NCBI RefSeq assembly: GCF_009834785.1
Contig: NZ_WUYX01000070.1
Location: 145,622 to 209,621 of the forward strand
Origin: Natronorubrum halalkaliphilum
GTDB lineage: Archaea; Halobacteriota; Halobacteria; Halobacteriales; Natrialbaceae
DNA: 64,000 nucleotides
Direction: 5' to 3'
In this document: positions 1 through 10,365 of the stretch, piece after piece
Layout: the number at the start of each line of letters is the position of its first letter
How positions within the stretch are numbered: the stretch's first letter is position 1
Translations under genes and position numbers: made by a program
The notes under the pieces: generated by a model
What the model saw: the letters and a program-made list of their open reading frames with translations, nothing else
Database searches by the model: none
What the model was told of the DNA's origin: nothing

Positions 1-1095
1 CGGGACGACGGCCGACCCCTTCTCCAGCAGGACGGGATCCCGTCCGAGGTCGCTCGCGAGCAACTCCGCGGTCGCCACCCCGCAGGCCGGCACGTCGGGA
101 ATCGAGGCGGCGAGATGAACCGCCGCCGTCCGCGCCACGACCCCGTCGATCGTGGTCGTCACGATCGGCGTGATCTCGAGTTCCTGTACCCACGCTGCGG
201 CTTTGCGGGCGACGTCGACGCCGCCGAGCGCCATCGGTTTGAGCACGACCGCGTCGGCTGCCTGGGCTTCACAGATCGCGTCGACGCCGTGTTCGAGGAA
301 CCCTTCATCCAGGGCGATCTGGACCCCCTCGCCCCCTTCGTGTTCGCGGAGATCAGCGTGGCCCGCCAGCGACCCCGCCGGAAGCGGCTGCTCGAGGATC
401 GACACGTCGAGTTCGCCGAAGGCCTCGAGCGCTGTCACCGCCTCGTTGTAGGTCCAGGCCTCGTTCGCGTCGACTCGCAACTCGACCTCGGGACCGACGG
501 CCGATCGAGTCCGCCGGACCCGTTCGATATCGGCCTCGACGGACCGGCGGCCGACTTTCAGTTTGCAACAGTCGAACCCGCGTTCGACAGCGTCGCTGAC
601 GTCGTGGACCGTTTCGCTCGGCGACCCGTCGCCGATCGTCGCGTTAACCGGGACCCGCCCGACCATCGGCCCCTGTCCGACGTAGCGGTACAGCGGCGTC
701 GCCTCGCGGGTCGCCTGCAGATCTGCAAGCGCGAGCGCGATCGCGTGTCTGGCCGCAACCTGTCGGTCGGCGGCCTCGAGCGCCGCTGCCGGCGACGTTC
801 GGATCTCGTCGCTGGCACGCTCGAGGGCGGCCTCGCAGTCCTCGAGGGATTCCGTCCAGCCGGCCAGCGGCGTCGCCTCGCCGTAGCCGACCGCCGCTTC
901 GTCCCCGTCGGCAGCCGTATCGGTGATCCGGACGAGGAACCCGTCTCGTGAGTCGATCGTTCCGCCGGCCGTCTCGAGCGAGGTCGCGAGTTCGAGCGAG
1001 AACGGGCGGTACTCGAGTTCGAGCGTGGACTCGCGCTCGCCATCGTCATCGCCATCTCCCTCACCACCACCGCCTCGATCAGGGTTCTCGTTCAT
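1..1095 (-). CDS. menC: o-succinylbenzoate synthase (MenC), C-terminus cut by window edge
   Basis: This is an enolase-superfamily enzyme that dehydrates SHCHC to o-succinylbenzoate in menaquinone synthesis. All 365 visible codons are open and the stop lies beyond position 1. Translation shows the K-x-K catalytic pair (CCKLKVG, K178/K180), the metal-ligand stretch RVDANEAW (D209), ILEQP, ALDEG and the second lysine in VVLKPMALGG, in the expected order. The first 22 or so residues are an acidic, Gly-rich leader not expected in the family, so a later start is possible. The ATG overlaps the menA stop by 4 bases (ATGA), which suggests translational coupling. Family membership is clear. The o-succinylbenzoate specificity, as opposed to another muconate-cycloisomerase-type enzyme, rests on the men neighbours. 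Confidence 0.9.
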   Translation of the reverse strand, partial: MNENPDRGGGGEGDGDDDGERESTLELEYRPFSLELATSLETAGGTIDSRDGFLVRITDTAADGDEAAVGYGEATPLAGWTESLEDCEAALERASDEIRTSPAAALEAADRQVAARHAIALALADLQATREATPLYRYVGQGPMVGRVPVNATIGDGSPSETVHDVSDAVERGFDCCKLKVGRRSVEADIERVRRTRSAVGPEVELRVDANEAWTYNEAVTALEAFGELDVSILEQPLPAGSLAGHADLREHEGGEGVQIALDEGFLEHGVDAICEAQAADAVVLKPMALGGVDVARKAAAWVQELEITPIVTTTIDGVVARTAAVHLAASIPDVPACGVATAELLASDLGRDPVLLEKGSAVVP

Positions 1096-2036
1096 AGGAT
1101 CACCCCGACGGCGAACAGGGCCGCGTAGATCGCGAGCAGTTTTCCGGTGCCCTCGAGTGCGGGATTGAGGGCCTCGCCGTCGGATCGGGTACAGACCGTT
1201 TGTGCGATCGCGAGCGCATAGGGGAGCGAGACGAGCGGCAGCAGGACGCTGCGGCCGACGCCTTCGACGAGCCAGAACCACAGCGGCGTGACGTAGGCGA
1301 GTGCGAGCAGGGACACGTACTCGACGCGGCTCCAGCGATAGCCGAGTCGAACCGCGAGGGTTCGCTTGCCGGCTTCGGCGTCGGTCGCTAGATCACGGAT
1401 GTTGTTCACCACGATGATGGCCGTCGAAATGGCGGCCACCGGAAGGCTCGCGATGAACGCTTCTCGCGTGACCGTCCCCTCAGGAATCGTCGTGATCAGC
1501 GGCTCAGTCGGCATCGCCGCCGCGGCCTGGACGTAGTAGGTCCCCATCACGGCGACGATTCCGAAGAAGACGAACACGAAGAGATCGCCCAGACCGTGAT
1601 ACCCCAGCGGGTAGGGGCCGCCGGTGTAGGCCCAGCCGCAGAAGACGCTCACCAGCCCGATGACGAGGATCGGCACGCCGCCGACATAGACCAGATACGT
1701 CCCGGTGAGGATCGCCAGCGCGAACGTCAGGATCGTCGCCAGTTTGACCTGCTCCGGCGAGATGAGTCCCGACTGGGTGACCCGGGTGAACCCCTCCCGA
1801 TCCTCGGTGTCGGCACCCTTGACCGCGTCGTAGTAATCGTTCGCGAAGTTGGTTCCGATCTGAATCAGCGCCGCACCGACGAACGCCATCAGCGCCGGTA
1901 GCGGGGCGAACACGCCCTCGTGGATCGCGAGTCCCGTGGCGACGATCACCGGTGCCGCAGCCGCGGGCAAGGTCTGGGGACGTGCAGCCATCAGCCACGC
2001 CTTCGTGCGTGAGATATCGACCTCGGCCGTACTCAT
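1092..2036 (-). CDS. menA: 1,4-dihydroxy-2-naphthoate polyprenyltransferase (MenA, UbiA family)
   Basis: This integral membrane prenyltransferase attaches the isoprenoid tail to dihydroxynaphthoate, giving demethylmenaquinone. The Asp-rich prenyl-diphosphate motif NDYYDAVKGAD is at about residues 66-76, and the second motif NNIRDLATDAEAGKRTLA is at about 211-228. Eight or so hydrophobic segments and a length of 314 residues fit MenA. The N-terminal ARPQTLPAAAAPV stretch is typical of the family. I chose the ATG at 2036 (MSTAEV) over an upstream in-frame ATG five codons earlier, because the short form removes a non-conserved METRA leader. The gene is directly followed by menC with a 4-base overlap. 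Confidence 0.93.
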   Translation of the reverse strand: MSTAEVDISRTKAWLMAARPQTLPAAAAPVIVATGLAIHEGVFAPLPALMAFVGAALIQIGTNFANDYYDAVKGADTEDREGFTRVTQSGLISPEQVKLATILTFALAILTGTYLVYVGGVPILVIGLVSVFCGWAYTGGPYPLGYHGLGDLFVFVFFGIVAVMGTYYVQAAAAMPTEPLITTIPEGTVTREAFIASLPVAAISTAIIVVNNIRDLATDAEAGKRTLAVRLGYRWSRVEYVSLLALAYVTPLWFWLVEGVGRSVLLPLVSLPYALAIAQTVCTRSDGEALNPALEGTGKLLAIYAALFAVGVIL

Positions 2037-2197
2037 TGCTCGTGTCTCCACCTCGCGGGAGTGTCAACGTTGGCATTGCGGTCGATCAGCGCCTTCGAGG
2101 GCCAGGACCGCCGTCTTCACCCCGTGAAACCGACGTTATCCGCTCGATAGTTCATGGTCGGATTGTCGATGATCGACGATCGGCTGTTGGCTATCGA

Positions 2198-2983
2198 CTA
2201 CCGGCGGCTGAACAAAAAGAGGAGTGCAACGATCCCGCCCAGCGTCACTAACGGTGTGAATCCCGGCACCGGATCACCCCCATCGCCGCTCGAGTCCGCG
2301 TCCGTGTTCTCCGTCGTCTCGTTGGCCTCCGTCACCGCCTCATCGTCGCCGTCTTCGTCGTCCGCGAGCGTGATCCCGTCCGGATCATCGTCGGCACTCT
2401 CCTCGTCATCCGGCGCGCCGCCCTCGACGTGGACGGTTGTGTCCCGTTCGAACGACGCCTGCGGGTTGCCGTTGATGAGCCTCGCTTCCGCATCCGTAAT
2501 CTCGAGCGTCTCCGTCGTCGGCGAAAGGTCCTCGGCGACCGTAAGCGTCAGCGTCGCCGCGGTGTCGGTCGATTTCGCGCCGTCACCCGATGGCGTCCGC
2601 TCCTGGTCGACCGTCACCGCGCCGCCGTCCTCATCGATCGCGACCGAGCCATCGACTTCGGTATCATCGTCGCCCGCAGTCAGCATGGGCCCGTGTTCGA
2701 CGTCGGTCACGGCGAACGCGTCGGCATCGTACTCGATCGTGAACGACAGTTCGTCGATGCCGTTGCCGGCGAGGTCACCGTGGCTACTCGCGACCAGATC
2801 GATCGTCACCGTTTCGCCGGCGTCGGCCTCGATCTCGCTCGGCTCGAGGGAGAACACCGTCGCGTTGTCACCGGCGCCGACCGTCGCCGGGACGAGCAGG
2901 CCGACGACGAGACCGCACGCGACGATGGTTGCGGCCGCGATCGAGAGCGAGCGACGGGAGCGAGAATCCGTACCCATCATCAC
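2198..2983 (-). CDS. secreted cohesin-like domain protein with PGF-CTERM-type anchor
   Basis: The protein has an N-terminal signal segment (about residues 10-36) and then one beta-rich domain (about 40-185) resembling cohesin/carbohydrate-binding modules (features such as LSFTIEYDADAFAVTDVEHG). An acidic D/E/T-rich stalk follows (about 190-235). The C-terminus is PGF, a hydrophobic helix and SRR, the layout of PGF-CTERM substrates of archaeosortase, so it is probably lipid-anchored at the cell surface. The start overlaps the upstream gene's stop by 4 bases, making it the last gene of a three-gene exported operon (5617 to 2198). Its ligand is unknown. Tethering or protein-protein contact is suggested only by the domain type. 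Confidence 0.8.
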   Translation of the reverse strand: MMMGTDSRSRRSLSIAAATIVACGLVVGLLVPATVGAGDNATVFSLEPSEIEADAGETVTIDLVASSHGDLAGNGIDELSFTIEYDADAFAVTDVEHGPMLTAGDDDTEVDGSVAIDEDGGAVTVDQERTPSGDGAKSTDTAATLTLTVAEDLSPTTETLEITDAEARLINGNPQASFERDTTVHVEGGAPDDEESADDDPDGITLADDEDGDDEAVTEANETTENTDADSSGDGGDPVPGFTPLVTLGGIVALLFLFSRR

Positions 2984-4296
2984 CCCTCCGGCACCGTCAG
3001 TTCGATCGGCGGCATCTCGAGGAAGGCCGTCTCGTACCCCTGGTGGCGAGCGACCTGCGGCGGCGATTCGATCGTGATCGTGACGGCGTCGCCCGGTTGA
3101 ACGTCGCCGAGTGACGCCCCGTAGTGGAGATCGTACTCGCCGTCGATGGTCTGGACGAGTTCGGTGTCGGCGACCGTCTCGCCGTCGCGCTCGATCGTCG
3201 CGCTCAGAGCCATGTCCGCGAGGGGCACTCGATTGTACGGCGTTCGGGGCGAGACGAGCAGATAGCGGTCGTCCCCCTCCACGAGCCGGGAGCCGGAGTC
3301 GAAAAGCGTCGCGAGAAATGCCGCGTCGCCGCTTCGAGGGAGGTCGGTGTCGGGGTCGTCGATTGGCTCGAGGAGCGTTCCGGGATACGCGTCGGCCGCC
3401 GGGAGCGCGGAGTAAGGGATGTCGTCGTGGTTGTGGTGGTCGTCGCGCCCGTCGTCGTGGTCGCCATGGTCATGATCGTCGTGTCCGTCGTGGTCGTCGT
3501 GGCCATCATGGTCGTGGTCGTCGTCATCGTGTTCCTGCTGATCGCCGTGGTCACCGTGACCACCGTGGTCCATCGGCTCGAGTGCCCCGCGTTGGCCCCA
3601 GTACTCCTCGTCGAGATACTCGACCTCGCCGACGACGTGGTCCCAGAACGCCTCGTCGTAGTCGAACTCGAACGTCGCGGTCGCGCGCTCGGTGAACCGA
3701 CCCTCAAGTTGGCCCGTTGTCCGCGTCGAAAGCGGCGGTAGTTCGACTTCGACTGTGTAGGTGCCGTGGTCATCCAGCGGGACGTTGTCGCCGAAGTGAA
3801 AGCCCATGGCCTGTGAGATCATCGTCCAGGCCGATCGGGGCGAGCCGACCTGCTCCCCGTCCCGAAAGACTCGGATCGCGTTCCCGCTGTCGACCGGCAG
3901 AACGACGCCGGTGTCATCGTCCCAGAGGGTGAACATCATGTGCACGCCGTCCATCTGCTCGGGATCGTTGCGCTCGATTTCGCCCTCGCCACCGGCACCG
4001 CCGGTCAGGATCCAAAACGGATGCGGGTACGACAGCATCGGTGCGATGGTGTAGTCGCCGGCCTCGACCGGCTCGAGCATCCGCATCGACTCTCGGTGTG
4101 TCGGGACGTACACCGCGTCCGGCGGATCCTCGACTTCCGGAAACGCCGGCGCCTCCAGATCGTCGTCGGTTTCCTCCGTCGTGTCGTCGTTATCGTCGTC
4201 ATCGTCGGTTCCCAGACAGCCCGCCAGCGCGAGCAGCCCGGTCACTGCGCCTGTCCGCCTGACGAACGTCCGTCGATCGAAATCGTGGTCCTGCAT
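2980..4296 (-). CDS. Tat lipoprotein, iron-transport-associated (Tp34/P19-like) with His-rich insert
   Basis: The N-terminus carries a twin-arginine signal (FDRRTFVRRTG) and a lipobox ending at Cys27, so this is an exported lipoprotein of 438 residues. Residues 60-240 contain APMLSYPHPFWILTG and MDGVHMMFTLWDDDTG, which resemble the metal-binding P19/Tp34 iron-transport-associated family. This is followed by a striking His/Asp-rich stretch (residues 243-290, over 20 His) and a C-terminal beta domain (about 295-438). Metal binding (Fe or Cu) at the cell surface is the likely role. That is inferred from family resemblance and the His-rich run. It lies 34 bases downstream of the DyP-like gene and overlaps the next gene by 4 bases. 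P19-like proteins elsewhere accompany iron permeases, but no permease is visible here. Confidence 0.8.
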   Translation of the reverse strand: MQDHDFDRRTFVRRTGAVTGLLALAGCLGTDDDDDNDDTTEETDDDLEAPAFPEVEDPPDAVYVPTHRESMRMLEPVEAGDYTIAPMLSYPHPFWILTGGAGGEGEIERNDPEQMDGVHMMFTLWDDDTGVVLPVDSGNAIRVFRDGEQVGSPRSAWTMISQAMGFHFGDNVPLDDHGTYTVEVELPPLSTRTTGQLEGRFTERATATFEFDYDEAFWDHVVGEVEYLDEEYWGQRGALEPMDHGGHGDHGDQQEHDDDDHDHDGHDDHDGHDDHDHGDHDDGRDDHHNHDDIPYSALPAADAYPGTLLEPIDDPDTDLPRSGDAAFLATLFDSGSRLVEGDDRYLLVSPRTPYNRVPLADMALSATIERDGETVADTELVQTIDGEYDLHYGASLGDVQPGDAVTITIESPPQVARHQGYETAFLEMPPIELTVPEG

Positions 4297-4330
4297 GTGT
4301 CTTATTCCGTGATCGATTGTCTCTCGGTGG

Positions 4331-5617
4331 TTAGGTCTCCTCGCTCGAGTCGTCGCCCGTCGGGTTCGCCGGTGGCAACGCCCGCAGCGAACGCGGAGGA
4401 ATCAGGTAGTTGCCGCGTTGCGTGACGAAGATGTAGCTGCGGATGCCGTTGTTCGCGTTCGCGACGCCCAGATCGTCGCCGGTCATCGCCTCGCGAACGC
4501 GGACGAACGCTTCGATATCCTCCTGGAGAGAGAGGAAGTGCAGTCCTGGACTCTCGCCGTCGACCGTATTGAAGTCGCGTCGCAGCAGCGGCGGTTCGCC
4601 GTCCACTCTGGCTCGAGCGGCCTTCTGGGCGTGGCCGACGACCCCGCGGGTGCGAGCGTCGTCCTGGGTGGACTCGATCCGCTCGTCGGTCAACGCGTTC
4701 GTACTCGTCAGGGCCTCGCCGATGTCGCCGACCAGTTCTTCGTCGGCGTGTTCCGGGCTGAACATCTTCGTGACGCGCTGGTAGTGGTTGTCCTGCTCGA
4801 ACCAGATCCGGAGCTGAAGATCCATCGAGGAGATCTGTTGGGTCGTCCCCCCGCCGAACGGTCCGTCTTCGATCGTCACCCGATCTTCGGTGGCCTGACT
4901 CCGATCGAAGCCGGAGCGAAACCCCATGAAGAACGGGGCCTCATCGGGAATCGAGTCGGGGACGCCCGAGAGCTCCGTGTGCTCGGCGGGCAGCCCCTCG
5001 CCGACGAAGCCGGTCCGGCGCTGGTCTTCGACACGTTCGAAGACGCCCGTCAGACCGGTCTCGACATCGACGCCGTTGAGTTCATCAGCCTCGCCGAACA
5101 GCCCTGCTTCGGCCTCGAGAACGACCTGCGAGCGGTCGCTGGCGAGGTGGAGCACGGCGTCGAACTCGTCGAACGTCGGGTCCTCTCGATCCGTCAACGG
5201 TTCGGGCTCCGGCAGGTCGACCGTCTCGGGCAGCGAATCGTCGAACCGATCGAAATACGCCGGCGTGTACCCCAGTGTAAAGACCAGCCCCTCGTTGCTC
5301 CACTCGTAGGCGCGCTCGAGGATTTCCAGCGCGTCTTCGACCCGCTCCCGTCCGTCGTCGCTCGGCTCGTCGATCAGCGACAAAGCGACCAGCACGTGGT
5401 GTTCCGGCGGCTGGACGTTGCCGTGGTCGTCCCGCGAGAGGGCGTCGTTCCAGGCGTGCTGTCGAGCCGGAAGCGAATCCGGATCGTCCGTGCCGGTCGG
5501 AACGTCGACGTCGTCGCTTTCGGAGACGCAAGCGCTCAGTGCGGTCGCGCCGCCGACGGCGACCAGTGCTCGGAGGTAGTCCCGGCGGGAGAGCGAAGAC
5601 CGATCGGGAAGTGTCAC
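4331..5617 (-). CDS. DyP-type peroxidase-like Tat lipoprotein (EfeB-like) lacking the catalytic Asp
   Basis: This 428-residue protein starts at a GTG. It has a Tat motif (SRRDYLRAL, residues 10-18) and a lipobox ending at Cys30. The C-terminal half aligns by eye with dye-decolourising peroxidases: VGHAQKAARAR supplies the proximal heme-ligand His (H329), PLLRRDFN the conserved Arg (R346/R347), and GLHFLSLQEDIEAFVRV the terminal ferredoxin-like strand. In the distal motif GxxDG the Asp is replaced by Ser (GFRSG, 232-236). It may therefore bind heme without normal peroxidase chemistry, or use another acid. It is first in an operon with a His-rich iron-type lipoprotein, echoing the EfeO/EfeB pairing of iron uptake systems. 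Confidence 0.75.
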   Translation of the reverse strand: MTLPDRSSLSRRDYLRALVAVGGATALSACVSESDDVDVPTGTDDPDSLPARQHAWNDALSRDDHGNVQPPEHHVLVALSLIDEPSDDGRERVEDALEILERAYEWSNEGLVFTLGYTPAYFDRFDDSLPETVDLPEPEPLTDREDPTFDEFDAVLHLASDRSQVVLEAEAGLFGEADELNGVDVETGLTGVFERVEDQRRTGFVGEGLPAEHTELSGVPDSIPDEAPFFMGFRSGFDRSQATEDRVTIEDGPFGGGTTQQISSMDLQLRIWFEQDNHYQRVTKMFSPEHADEELVGDIGEALTSTNALTDERIESTQDDARTRGVVGHAQKAARARVDGEPPLLRRDFNTVDGESPGLHFLSLQEDIEAFVRVREAMTGDDLGVANANNGIRSYIFVTQRGNYLIPPRSLRALPPANPTGDDSSEET

Positions 5618-5820
5618 TGGCGATAACTTAGTACCGGAGCGTTCAAAGCGTTGTCCTTCGCACCGATTCTACCGCCATCGCCGATGGAGTCGTGACGCCG
5701 ACTCTCGCTTCGGACGGGCTGATACAACGTCGTTCCGTCACGTGTGAACGGTTCCGGATCGAACGGTGTATCGTAGATAGCAGCAACCATTGCCGCCGAT
5801 TGTAGAGTGCCGGAAACGAC

Positions 5821-6714
5821 TCAGTAGTGCCACGGGTAGTCGTCAAAGTCGGGGTCGCGGCCCTCGACGAACGCGTCTCGGCCCTCCTCGGCCTCGTCGG
5901 TCATGTACCCCAGTCGGGTCGCCTCGCCGGCGAACACCTGCTGGCCGACCATCCCGTCGTCGGTCATGTTGAACGCGTACTTGAGCATCCGCATCGCCGT
6001 CGGGCTCTTGGCGTTGATACGGTCGCCCCACTCGAGAGCCGTCTCCTCCAACTCCTCGTGTGGAACGACGTCGTTAACCATCCCCATCTCTGCTGCCTCC
6101 TCGGCGGAGTAGGTCTTACCGAGGAAGAATACCTCTCGAGCCTTCTTCTGGCCGATCTGTTTCGCGAGGTAAGCCGAACCGAAACCGGCGTCGTAGCTCG
6201 CCACGTCGGGATCGGTCTGGAGGAACTTCGCGTGTTCCTCGCTCGCGAGCGTGAGATCGCAGACGACGTGCAGCGAGTGCCCGCCGCCGACGGCCCACCC
6301 CGGGACGACGCAGACGACGACCTTCGGAATGTGGCGGATCAGCCGCTGGACCTCGAGGATATGCAGCCGTCCCTGTTCGGAGGATCGCTCCTCATCTCCC
6401 TCGTACTGATACCCATCGTCACCCCGAATAGTCTGATCCCCGCCGGAGCAGAACGCCCACCCGTCGTCTTTCGATGACGGCCCGTTCCCCGTCAGCAGAA
6501 TGCAGCCGACGTCCGTCTGCCGTTTGGCGTGATCCAGCGCGTCGTACAGTTCGTCGACCGTCCCCGGCCGGAACGCGTTGCGCACGTCGGGTCGATCGAA
6601 CGCGATCCGGACCGTTCCGGAATCGACCGCCCGGTGGTAGGTGATGTCCTCGAACTCGTCGTTCAAGTCGGCGACCGACTCCCACTGCTCCGCGTCGAAG
6701 AGTTCCGAAACCAT
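5821..6714 (-). CDS. menB: 1,4-dihydroxy-2-naphthoyl-CoA synthase (MenB)
   Basis: This crotonase-family enzyme closes the second ring of the naphthoquinone, from o-succinylbenzoyl-CoA. The protein has 297 residues. It contains CSGGDQTIRG (the MenB-specific oxyanion/active-site segment), VPGWAVGGGHSLHVVCDLT, DPDVASYDAGFGSAYLA (a MenB hallmark) and the C-terminal DPDFDDYPWHY tail. The start is ATG 6714 (MVSELFDAEQW). The longer upstream reading frame has no family similarity. The gene stands apart from the other men genes, divergent from an amphi-Trp gene, with the exported operon 2198-5617 beyond its 3' end. Confidence 0.96.
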   Translation of the reverse strand: MVSELFDAEQWESVADLNDEFEDITYHRAVDSGTVRIAFDRPDVRNAFRPGTVDELYDALDHAKRQTDVGCILLTGNGPSSKDDGWAFCSGGDQTIRGDDGYQYEGDEERSSEQGRLHILEVQRLIRHIPKVVVCVVPGWAVGGGHSLHVVCDLTLASEEHAKFLQTDPDVASYDAGFGSAYLAKQIGQKKAREVFFLGKTYSAEEAAEMGMVNDVVPHEELEETALEWGDRINAKSPTAMRMLKYAFNMTDDGMVGQQVFAGEATRLGYMTDEAEEGRDAFVEGRDPDFDDYPWHY

Positions 6715-6862
6715 TGCTCGTGTTTGGTGGGCAGCAGGTGAAATAGGTTCGCGTCGTGTCTCGAGGCGTGTCAACAGGACCAGCAAATGAACGAACCGGG
6801 GGCTGCGATTCGGATGGATCGACCGTGAACGACATAGCCGTCGGTATCCTGTACCACGGACG

Positions 6863-7156
6863 ATGACAGCCGACCAACCCGATACCGACGAGCGAACGAC
6901 CATCCGACCGGGCCGCAACTTCGAACGGGAGTACCGCCTCGACGCGAGCGATGCGGGCGAGTTCCTGATCGCACTCGGCAAACAGCTCCGCGACGGAGAC
7001 GAGCTCACGATCAGCGACGACGAGTGGACGCTTCCGTTCGCCTTCGGCGAGCCGATCGAACTGGAAATCGACTTCGACGGCGTCGACGAACCGGAACTCG
7101 AAATCGAACTCGAACTGCCCGGTCGAACCGACGACTCGGCCCCGCGGATCGAGTAA
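6863..7156 (+). CDS. amphi-Trp domain protein
   Basis: This is a 97-residue, very acidic cytosolic protein. The central segment (about residues 19-85: FEREYRLDASDAGEFL, then DDEWTLPFAFGEPIELEI) matches what I recall of the amphi-Trp domain, a small domain common in haloarchaea and of unknown function. The C-terminal strand alternates Glu and hydrophobic residues (LEIELELPG). The gene is divergent from menB with a 148-base shared upstream region. No catalytic or metal-binding residues are evident. Confidence 0.7.
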   Translation: MTADQPDTDERTTIRPGRNFEREYRLDASDAGEFLIALGKQLRDGDELTISDDEWTLPFAFGEPIELEIDFDGVDEPELEIELELPGRTDDSAPRIE

Positions 7157-7432
7157 CCGGGGGTCTCGAATTCGAGTTCTCGCGAGTCAGCGAACCGAGT
7201 CGGTTTCCACCTTCCGTTTGTTGCGACCGGACTCCAATCTGGCCGCATACAGCTTTGTACGGCCAAAATGCGGCGTATCCGTCGGTTTTCAGTATCGGGA
7301 GACACTCAGCATTTGATATAGCGAATAGCAGTTTATGTGTTGGCTCTGGCCCGCTACTGATCGCTCGCTGAACGGTCGTTTGAGAACAGCCGAAGTGATT
7401 TTCACCGCTGATTACATATCGCTACGCAGTCG

Positions 7433-8425
7433 ATGGGCGAGACGTACTACGAAGTCCTCGGGGTCGACACCGATGCCTCTCAGGACGAGATTCGGGCGGC
7501 CTATCGGGAACGCGTCCTCGAGACCCATCCCGACCACAACGACGCACCCGACGCCGCCGAACAGTTCCAGTGCGTCTCGACGGCGGAGTCGGTGCTCACC
7601 GACGGCGCCGAGCGGGCTCGATACGATCGACTCGGCCACGAAGCCTACTTGCGGCTCGCCCAGCAGACGACCGACTCGAGTAGCGCAACCGCTGACAACT
7701 CGAGCACCAGTCACGACGCCGAGGAGACGACAAGATCGAGTGCCGAGACCGCAAACTCGACCGCGTCGGGCCGAGATCGTTCGCGAACCGGTACCCACCG
7801 TTCCACTACTCGAACCAGTCATACGCGTACGGGGACGGGACGAACCCACTCGAGGACCTCGAGAACCGGCTCGGAGTCAGCCGACCAAACTACGAGTCAT
7901 CACGCGCGACAGCGGAACCGACGACAGCGACGGACGACCCAACAGCAGACTGAAAACGGCTGGCCGTTCGCGTCCGGCGGTGACGACACGACCGCGAGTA
8001 CCGCGACGAGTACGAAGAGCGGCCGGTCCGACGGCGAGTCGGCGTCGGGGTTTCGGTACGCCGTCCACGACTGGGACGGCGATATCGACCTCGAGTGGGA
8101 CGGTCAATCGATCGATCACGCGACAGCGGTGACGCTCGGCTGTCTCTGGGCGCTCTATCCGGTGTTGGTCGGCTCGATTCTGTTTCCGGCGTTTCCGCTG
8201 GTCGTCAACGCGATCGTCGCCGCGTGTACGCTCGTTCTCGTCGGGTATCTCCTCACGAGACCCCGTTTTGCGACGGCGCTGTTCGGGTTCTGGAGTCTAC
8301 TGTTCCCGCTCGGACTGCTCCTGACGGGGGTATCCCCGGTCTCGATCACCGGACTCGTAGCACTCGGATTCGTGTGGGTACCTTTCGGCTACGCCGTTGC
8401 CCTCTGGTGGGCGCTTCAGCCGTGA
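7433..8425 (+). CDS. DnaJ-domain membrane protein
   Basis: An N-terminal J domain covers residues 4-70 (YYEVLGVDTDASQDEIRAAY, with H32-P33-D34), so it should stimulate a DnaK-type ATPase. Residues 75-215 form a long low-complexity Ser/Thr/Arg linker. The C-terminus (about 230-330) has three or four hydrophobic segments that anchor it in the membrane. There is no Gly/Phe region or zinc-binding CxxCxGxG, so it is a type III J protein and not housekeeping DnaJ. The linker is unusually rich in Arg for a haloarchaeal protein. A membrane-localised co-chaperone role is inferred. Confidence 0.8.
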   Translation: MGETYYEVLGVDTDASQDEIRAAYRERVLETHPDHNDAPDAAEQFQCVSTAESVLTDGAERARYDRLGHEAYLRLAQQTTDSSSATADNSSTSHDAEETTRSSAETANSTASGRDRSRTGTHRSTTRTSHTRTGTGRTHSRTSRTGSESADQTTSHHARQRNRRQRRTTQQQTENGWPFASGGDDTTASTATSTKSGRSDGESASGFRYAVHDWDGDIDLEWDGQSIDHATAVTLGCLWALYPVLVGSILFPAFPLVVNAIVAACTLVLVGYLLTRPRFATALFGFWSLLFPLGLLLTGVSPVSITGLVALGFVWVPFGYAVALWWALQP

Positions 8426-8526
8426 GATCCCTCGAACGAGTGTAAGCTCGGTCCACTGTTCATCAGTTACAGACTCACGCAACGTACCACCCAGAACCGA
8501 AGTACAGGCCCCAAAACGCCGAAGAA

Positions 8527-10365
8527 TCAGTCCATCGACTCGCCCTCGAGCGCGCTCGACACAGCCTCGTTGACCTGTCGCTCGAGTTCCTCCCGCCTGC
8601 GGTGACTCGTTTCCGATTCGAACTGGACCGAGAGAACCTGCGTGCCCTCGCGCTCGAGGGATCGTCGATACGCCGCCGCGAAGTCGGCGGGATCGACGCG
8701 TTCGAACTCGAGGCCGTAGAGTTCCGCGAGCGAGTCGAACTCGAGGTCGTGGGGCGTCTTGAACTGATCCGTAAACGGCGGCTCGAAGTCTTCGATCGGA
8801 AGTTTGTGGAAGATTCCGCCGCCGTCGTTGTCCAACAGGACGATGGTCGCATCGACATCACAGCGATCGACGGCGAGCAGCCCGTTCGAATCGTGGTAGA
8901 ACGCCAGATCGCCGGTGACGAGCACGAGCGGGTCGTCGGTCGCGCTTCCGGCACCGAGAGCCGTACTCGCGATGCCGTCGATACCGCTTGCACCCCGGTT
9001 CGCGAGTATCGTCAGGTCGGCCGATCGCGGACGGCCGAATCGGTCCGCGTCCCGGATCGGCATGCTGTTCGAGACGAACACGGTCGCCGGATCGGGCGCG
9101 TGTTCGAAGACGGCCGCGAGCACGGCCCCCTCGAAGGGGTCCGACTCGAGCGCGTCGTCGCGAACGTCCCAGTGTCGCCGCTCCGCGTCGGCGTACCGGC
9201 TCAGCCAGTCGGTTCTCGTCACTCGAGGGTCAGCTCCGTCGGTCGGTCGGCGCTCCTCGAACGTCTTCGCGAGCGTCTCGAAGACGGGGCCGGGCGCCGC
9301 CGCAACCAGATCGGTCGCGGTGAACGTTGCCTCGCGCCACGCGCCCGCGGGGTCGAGCAGGAACTGGCGGGCATCCGAATCGCGCAACGCGTGTCGAAGC
9401 GGCTTCGACGTCGGCGACGCGCCGAAGCGGACGACGACGTCCGGCGACGGGAGCGAATCGATGTAGCCGTCGTAGCCGCCATACACGATCGGGACGGCAT
9501 CGTCCGACCCGGACCCATGCTCGACGCTGTCCGCAACGTGGCGACCGAATCGCAGATCCGAGAGCGGATCCGCGAGGATCGGCGCGCCGAGACGCTCGGC
9601 GACGGTAACGACGTGTTCCGGCTCGAGGCCCGTCAGATCGGCGGGGTCGGCCGGGCCCGCCACGATCATCGGTCGGTCGGCGTCCTCGAGCGAACGAACG
9701 AGCGGACGGTACTGACTATCAGCAAGCGTCTGCGTGCCGGAATCGGTTTCGACGAACGCCCCCTCGCGCCCTCGTCCGGCCAGCGTTTCCGCAAACGAAT
9801 CCGGCACCGCATCCGGCACCTCGAGGGGCTCGAGTGGCTTTTTGAACGGACAGTTCAGGTGGACGGGGCCGGGTTCGGGCCCGCCGGTCTCGGACAGCGC
9901 CCGTGCGGCAGTGGTCCGGAGGCTTCGAACCGTTCGCTCGTCGGCTTCGGGTTCCGGAAGTTCCGCGTACCACCGGACCGCGTCGCCGTAGAGTTTGACC
10001 TGATCGACCGTCTGATTCGCGCCGCTGTCCCGCAGTTCCGGCGGTCGATCCGCCGTGAGTACGAGCAGCGGTACCCGCGCTTGATCGGCTTCCATCACGG
10101 CGGGGTGGAAGTTGGCCGCCGCCGTTCCCGAGGTACAGACCAGCGCCGTCGGCTCGCCGGTTCGTCTCGCACGACCGAGCGCGAAGAAGGCCGCCGACCG
10201 CTCGTCGAGATGCGAGTACACGTCGATTTCGGAGTGTTCGGCGAACGCGACCGTCAGCGGCGTCGACCGACTGCCGGGCGCGATACAGACGCCCTCGAGC
10301 CCGCCCTTTGCGAGTTCGTCGGCGAGGACGCGACCCCACAGCGTCGCTCGGTTGGGTGCAGCCAT
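8527..10365 (-). CDS. menD: SEPHCHC synthase (MenD)
   Basis: This ThDP-dependent enzyme joins 2-oxoglutarate to isochorismate in menaquinone synthesis. It has 612 residues, slightly longer than bacterial MenD. The N-terminal Pyr domain shows CIAPGSRSTPLTVAF and HLDERSAAFFALG, with the likely catalytic Glu55, and CTSGTAAANFHPAVMEA. The C-terminal PP domain has the ThDP motif running from GDLAFYHDSNGLL (485) to NDGGGIF (513-519). Also present are NSMPIRD and NRGASGIDGI, typical of MenD. It starts 4 bases after the menF stop, so the two are almost certainly co-transcribed. Confidence 0.97.
   Translation of the reverse strand: MAAPNRATLWGRVLADELAKGGLEGVCIAPGSRSTPLTVAFAEHSEIDVYSHLDERSAAFFALGRARRTGEPTALVCTSGTAAANFHPAVMEADQARVPLLVLTADRPPELRDSGANQTVDQVKLYGDAVRWYAELPEPEADERTVRSLRTTAARALSETGGPEPGPVHLNCPFKKPLEPLEVPDAVPDSFAETLAGRGREGAFVETDSGTQTLADSQYRPLVRSLEDADRPMIVAGPADPADLTGLEPEHVVTVAERLGAPILADPLSDLRFGRHVADSVEHGSGSDDAVPIVYGGYDGYIDSLPSPDVVVRFGASPTSKPLRHALRDSDARQFLLDPAGAWREATFTATDLVAAAPGPVFETLAKTFEERRPTDGADPRVTRTDWLSRYADAERRHWDVRDDALESDPFEGAVLAAVFEHAPDPATVFVSNSMPIRDADRFGRPRSADLTILANRGASGIDGIASTALGAGSATDDPLVLVTGDLAFYHDSNGLLAVDRCDVDATIVLLDNDGGGIFHKLPIEDFEPPFTDQFKTPHDLEFDSLAELYGLEFERVDPADFAAAYRRSLEREGTQVLSVQFESETSHRRREELERQVNEAVSSALEGESMD

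Follow-up and report, generated by a model that had tools for sequence, protein, structure and literature searches.

A 64,000-nucleotide stretch of the Natronorubrum halalkaliphilum genome (contig NZ_WUYX01000070.1, positions 145,622 to 209,621; hereafter the window) carries three adjacent genes for exported proteins. Two of these proteins form a pair of lipoproteins conserved across the Halobacteria, namely a DUF7405 protein with the predicted fold of a Dyp-type peroxidase (DyP) and a P19/FtrA-like protein with a C-terminal DUF7350 domain. We consider this pair to represent the bacterial EfeB/P19 type of iron uptake in a haloarchaeal form that lacks FTR1, with a probability of roughly 0.55. 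The reading is based on the DyP fold, invariant His and Arg residues, the P19 identity of the partner, co-occurrence and adjacency of the two genes, the lack of a detectable FTR1, all of them computed here, and on metal- and redox-related neighbours in other genomes. In a check of open reading frames in the window, all three genes were found on the minus strand in one orientation, transcribed in the order gene 1 (4331-5617, GTG start, 428 amino acids, protein P0001), gene 2 (2980-4296, 438 amino acids, P0002) and gene 3 (2198-2983, 261 amino acids, P0003). Genes 1 and 2 are spaced by 34 bases and genes 2 and 3 overlap by 4 bases, just as given in a preliminary description made from the sequence alone.

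The conserved core unit is DUF7405 plus P19-DUF7350, that is two genes, not three. Among 242 Halobacteria genomes, DUF7405 was present in 213 and DUF7350 in 207; both occurred together in 206 (about 85%), DUF7405 alone in seven, DUF7350 alone in one and neither in 28. The corresponding Fisher p value (5e-29) ignores phylogeny; the absences are spread over several families and genera. For 40 loci fetched separately, the distance from DUF7405 to a P19 gene was at most 3 kb in 35, the two genes invariably sharing a strand, and the gap was below 120 bases in 24 of the 40. Three of the five loci without a nearby P19 gene sit on contigs shorter than 6 kb. Thus, of the co-occurrence suggested in the preliminary description, the two-gene pair stood, whereas the three-gene unit across Halobacteria had to be abandoned: the cohesin-type gene 3 is almost confined to Natrialbaceae and was found in 14 related loci only.

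Pfam assigns protein 1 to DUF7405 (PF24152, E-value 1.5e-153). It carries a motif of the twin-arginine translocation (Tat) type followed by a lipobox Cys, and R11, R12 and C30 are invariant in 71 of 71 relatives. The link to DyPs based on sequence is weak: deferrochelatase and DyP chains are the best profile matches, at an E-value of about 0.1, and a Dyp_perox_C domain was found in one DUF7405 relative (E-value 5.8e-7). The AlphaFold2 model, built from a 61-sequence alignment, reached a mean predicted local distance difference test score (pLDDT) of 94.5, and a Foldseek search of the PDB placed DyPs on top (E-value 2.4e-17, template modelling score up to 0.74 by target length), with essentially all of the top 50 matches being DyPs. 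The predicted DyP fold is therefore clear from structure, though weak from sequence. Two megaplasmid copies of DUF7405 (L133 and L134) adjoin DUF892 or Dps genes and have no adjacent P19, which suggests that they belong to another, stress-related group of paralogues.

The residues expected around a DyP heme were largely retained. His329 (4631-4633, minus strand), the putative proximal heme ligand, aligns with the proximal His of DyPs in the profile matches and is His in 104 of 104 relatives. Arg346-Arg347 (4577-4582, minus strand) aligns with the RR of deferrochelatase and DyP chains; Arg346, the equivalent of the DyP distal Arg, is kept in 104 of 104 relatives and the pair in 71 of 71. The counterpart of the DyP motif GxxDG reads GFRSG (residues 232-236; 4910-4924, minus strand), with Ser235 in place of Asp. 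The preliminary description had named all of these residues, and its unusual motif proved genuine: no intact GxxDG was found among the 102 relatives without a gap in the Asp column, where Ser occurred 61 times, Ala 39 times, Thr and Val once each and Asp never. As the replacement extends to all 102, the loss is a fixed, class-wide trait of the family and no peculiarity of this genome. Divergent DUF7405 copies (L126 and L128-L130) were considered as Asp-bearing intermediates and rejected; three of them have Ser, and the motif is not covered in L130. Elsewhere in the source genome, no classical DyP was detected with PF20628.

Published work is split on the role of this Asp. It is essential in some DyPs (PMC8197335) and acts as the proton acceptor in the K. 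pneumoniae enzyme KpDyP (PMC6153280), while R. jostii DyPB was reported to depend on the distal Arg and not on the Asp (Singh 2012, cited in PMC8197335). The substitution alone thus does not show that peroxidase activity is lost or kept, and taken on its own the lack of the Asp is no evidence against heme or peroxidase chemistry. With the proximal His and the distal Arg retained, heme binding and some peroxide-driven oxidation by protein 1 are plausible.

Protein 2 is likewise exported, with a Tat-type RR motif and a lipobox Cys (R8, R9 and C27, kept in 54 of 55 relatives). By sequence and by modelled fold, its N-terminal domain is P19/FtrA-like. The Pfam family Iron_transport (PF10634) scored 26.2 bits against a cut-off of 21 (E-value 1e-5), the best PDB match in a profile search with hmmsearch was FtrA (3.2e-5), and with the AlphaFold2 model (pLDDT 88.4) Foldseek ranks 1-27 were all occupied by the P19 family. 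The domain, delimited by Pfam and the profile search, spans about residues 58-213 (3658-4125, minus strand) and has H67, E69, M71, H92, H119, M121, M159, M164 and H167 as conserved residues. In the PM...HxGDN stretch, Met and His are retained; the FtrA position GRH appears as GRF in the profile alignment, for which reason the metal site of protein 2 may differ from that of FtrA. Residues 243-290 (3427-3570, minus strand) had been taken as a run of over 20 His; in fact, 15 His and 20 Asp are interleaved here, and the whole protein holds 24 His. The low model confidence of this tract is as expected for a disordered linker. An alignment of relatives showed the tract to be restricted to Natrialbaceae, and it was accordingly discarded as a defining feature of the system. 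The C-terminal DUF7350 domain (PF24041, E-value 3.1e-54; residues 303-434, 2995-3390, minus strand) has its own nearly invariant residues H391, R417 and H418, so that a further site for metal or for interaction may reside in this domain.

FTR1 (PF03239), the permease of the corresponding bacterial systems, was detected neither in the source genome nor in any of 116 sampled Halobacteria, while the control search was positive in four bacteria; for these genomes, a hidden FTR1 permease was thereby rejected. The preliminary description had proposed a surface, lipid-anchored iron- or heme-type assembly without a dedicated permease, and the absence can now be extended to the class. EfeO is not the partner in the operon, gene 2 encoding P19 plus DUF7350; the rest of the genome was not searched for EfeO. 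We did observe an unclassified family of membrane proteins with about ten transmembrane segments (10-TM family), which recurs beside P19/DyP genes in many Halobacteria (for example L075, 4853-6292; L084, 3994-5361; L081, 8997-10382; L077, 9670-11181). A member was found in 78 of the 116 genomes, and of the 30 loci with the best scores, 20 were no more than 1.5 kb away from P19 or DUF7405, a fraction biased upward by a query alignment built from P19/DyP neighbours. Pfam, NCBIfam and the PDB gave no substantial match for the family; its invariant motifs are YxxxH and GHxxAxxAxH, with Y373/H377 and H424/H432 as invariant residues in L075 numbering. In the source genome, the 10-TM gene lies on contig C69 and adjoins a second P19, SCO1, a redoxin and a CcdA-like protein. 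The family is a candidate permease or redox partner. A bolder version of the proposal would be a distinct metal-acquisition machine in Halobacteria, in which the Asp-less DyP-fold heme lipoprotein and the P19-DUF7350 lipoprotein feed this unrecognised transporter or redox family as a replacement of FTR1, the DyP-fold protein being a metal or heme redox partner and no classical peroxidase; we regard this as tentative and, in its entirety, rather unlikely.

For the FTR1-less iron uptake that we favour, we infer heme binding, the identity of the metal, the direction of electron flow, the permease and all functional steps as follows. P0002, Tat-exported and lipid-anchored, would capture iron on the outer side of the membrane, probably together with copper as in the P19 family. 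P0001, a likewise anchored DyP-fold heme protein, would oxidize or reduce the metal (Fe2+/Fe3+, possibly Cu+/Cu2+) or free iron from heme, and pass the metal on for import via a non-FTR1 membrane protein, possibly of the 10-TM family. To this pair, the clade represented in the window would have added the His/Asp-rich tract, presumably metal-buffering, and the cohesin-type surface protein. The model accords with reports that P19 proteins take part in iron uptake in several bacteria, their operon also encoding ABC permeases, an ATPase and thioredoxins (PMC6083913), and that EfeB is a member of an iron-uptake operon (PMC8197335). Several observations weigh against it. The 10-TM family is often located away from P19, and some genomes lack it; a number of loci have an appearance that points to copper more than to iron; the main text of a study of the H. 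volcanii iron-starvation proteome (PMC11349517) does not contain these protein names, with locus tags unmapped; and a general role in redox stress would be compatible with conservation throughout the class as well.

The neighbours in other loci bear on the choice of metal. In other genera, the pair is accompanied by a helix-turn-helix regulator of the HVO_0163 type, DUF7282 and DUF7471 proteins, and by redoxin, DsbA-like and CcdA-like proteins, the CcdA-like label being based on sequence appearance with no Pfam match. A Halobacterium locus contains plastocyanin, an ABC ATPase and an FtsX permease, and plasmid islands of the Salarchaeum type contain an iron-dependent (DtxR-type) repressor with a FeoA domain, a multicopper oxidase, plastocyanin, a ZIP-like protein and a heavy-metal ATPase. 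Closely similar metal islands (L077, L078, L079, L085 and L131) occur in different haloarchaeal families, partly plasmid-borne (e.g. pNG600), with subsets of genes for the iron-dependent repressor, multicopper oxidase, ZIP-like protein, plastocyanin, DyP, P19, 10-TM protein and P-type ATPase; these islands look horizontally transferred.

With its SCO1, plastocyanin and DtpA parallels, copper in place of iron is the strongest rival, although we hold it to be unlikely. The P19-like lipoprotein would then carry copper at the surface, the DyP-like protein would oxidize Cu+ or have a copper-linked redox function, and the pair would help to metallate copper enzymes such as heme-copper oxidases and halocyanins. 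Such a role would agree with SCO1/SenC, redoxin and the CcdA-like protein beside the second P19 of the source genome, with plastocyanin, multicopper oxidase and heavy-metal ATPase neighbours elsewhere, with the frequent binding of copper in solved P19/FtrA/FetP structures, and with Streptomyces DtpA, which is linked to sco and was proposed to oxidize Cu+ (PMC8197335). However, the same islands hold the iron-dependent repressor with the FeoA domain, P19 proteins serve iron uptake in several bacteria (PMC6083913), and the operon in the window itself has no copper neighbour.

The plasmid copies of the DyP gene located beside Dps or DUF892 genes, apart from P19, would rather speak for a surface defence against peroxide and redox stress, where the DyP-like lipoprotein mainly consumes peroxide or stores heme and the P19-like one sequesters metal against Fenton chemistry. 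This is improbable, since the tight linkage of the DyP-like gene with P19 argues against it and loss of the Asp in 102 of 102 relatives is unexpected under selection for peroxide turnover (PMC6153280). Poorest of all are the prospects of heme as the substrate, with a deferrochelatase-like protein stripping iron from, or carrying, scavenged heme and P19 taking the iron: deferrochelatase chains are the top profile matches, weakly, and demetallation would have no evident need of a distal Asp, but none of the loci studied yielded a heme-uptake gene, and whether EfeB acts as a deferrochelatase at all is under dispute (PMC8197335).

In protein 3, an N-terminal signal is present and the C-terminus is PGF-like (PGF_CTERM 18.5 bits, below the cut-off of 24.5); together with the Tat and lipobox motifs of proteins 1 and 2, this agrees with the earlier statement that all three are exported. 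Its assignment to the Pfam cohesin family (PF00963) is weak (26.6 bits, E-value 8e-6), as is its match to a PDB cohesin (E-value 0.018). Outside the window, relatives are found next to the pair in another 12 loci of Natrialbaceae and in one Salinarchaeum locus. A search for type I dockerins (PF00404) gave no match in the source genome and was positive in two controls; a dockerin partner was accordingly rejected. The trio is embedded in a menaquinone biosynthesis cluster (1-10365) comprising menD, menB, the trio, menA and a probable menC, all on the minus strand, with a plus-strand DnaJ-domain gene separating menD and menB. Its direct neighbours are menA downstream (1092-2051, minus strand) and menB upstream (5821-6732, minus strand, start not fixed). 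About ten Natrialbaceae loci show the same arrangement of trio and menA, the cohesin-type gene and menA being some 30-175 bases apart. Given this location and recurring close spacing, the trio may be co-transcribed with men genes or functionally connected with menaquinol. No common promoter palindrome was evident upstream of the Natrialbaceae operons, and a scan for bacterial-type promoters and terminators, a method unsuited to archaea, gave nothing.

GenBank records already name members "Dyp-type peroxidase (domain-containing)" and "iron transporter", therefore these labels are not new. We found no literature on DUF7405 and none of relevance on haloarchaeal DyPs, nor any prior description of the loss of the Asp throughout the class, of figures for the pairing, of the lack of FTR1 or of the candidate membrane partner. 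Apart from siderophore-type ABC systems, haloarchaeal metal uptake is poorly defined. Both folds of the pair are familiar from bacterial iron uptake, yet the permease defining those systems is absent, which poses two direct questions, one on the substitute for FTR1 and one on the function of a DyP heme site that has lost the Asp. As the role of this residue is debated for bacterial DyPs, DUF7405 offers a natural, class-wide set of Asp-less proteins.

Compared with known systems, protein 3 shares with cohesin-dockerin proteins of the cellulosome type the cohesin Pfam match and the weak PDB match, and differs from them in the lack of a detectable type I dockerin, its single domain, its metal operon and its clade-specific occurrence. 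Like the copper-linked DyPs DtpA and GlxA of Streptomyces, which are tied to SCO and copper genes and for which oxidation of metal ions was proposed, the haloarchaeal proteins have SCO1 in their surroundings; in the source genome, however, it sits at the paralogous P19 locus and not with the DyP, and the Asp is absent. The P19/FtrA/FetP uptake systems (FetMP, FtrABCD, Campylobacter Cj1658-1665 type) have in common with ours the P19 fold, the PM...H-x-GDN stretch and, in some haloarchaeal loci, thioredoxin-like, FtsX-type and ABC neighbours, whereas the lipoprotein nature, the extra DUF7350 domain, the missing FtrA GRH His (profile alignment), the lack of FTR1 and the DyP-fold partner set the haloarchaeal pair apart. 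As for EfeUOB (YwbLMN, FepABC), where EfeB is a Tat-exported class I DyP, the differences are the GxxDG Asp replaced in all relatives, the lipobox anchor, a P19-like partner instead of EfeO, and no FTR1/EfeU in the window operon or in any Halobacteria genome tested; the likeness lies in an exported DyP-fold protein, with proximal His and distal Arg kept, that is encoded together with an extracytoplasmic metal-binding partner.

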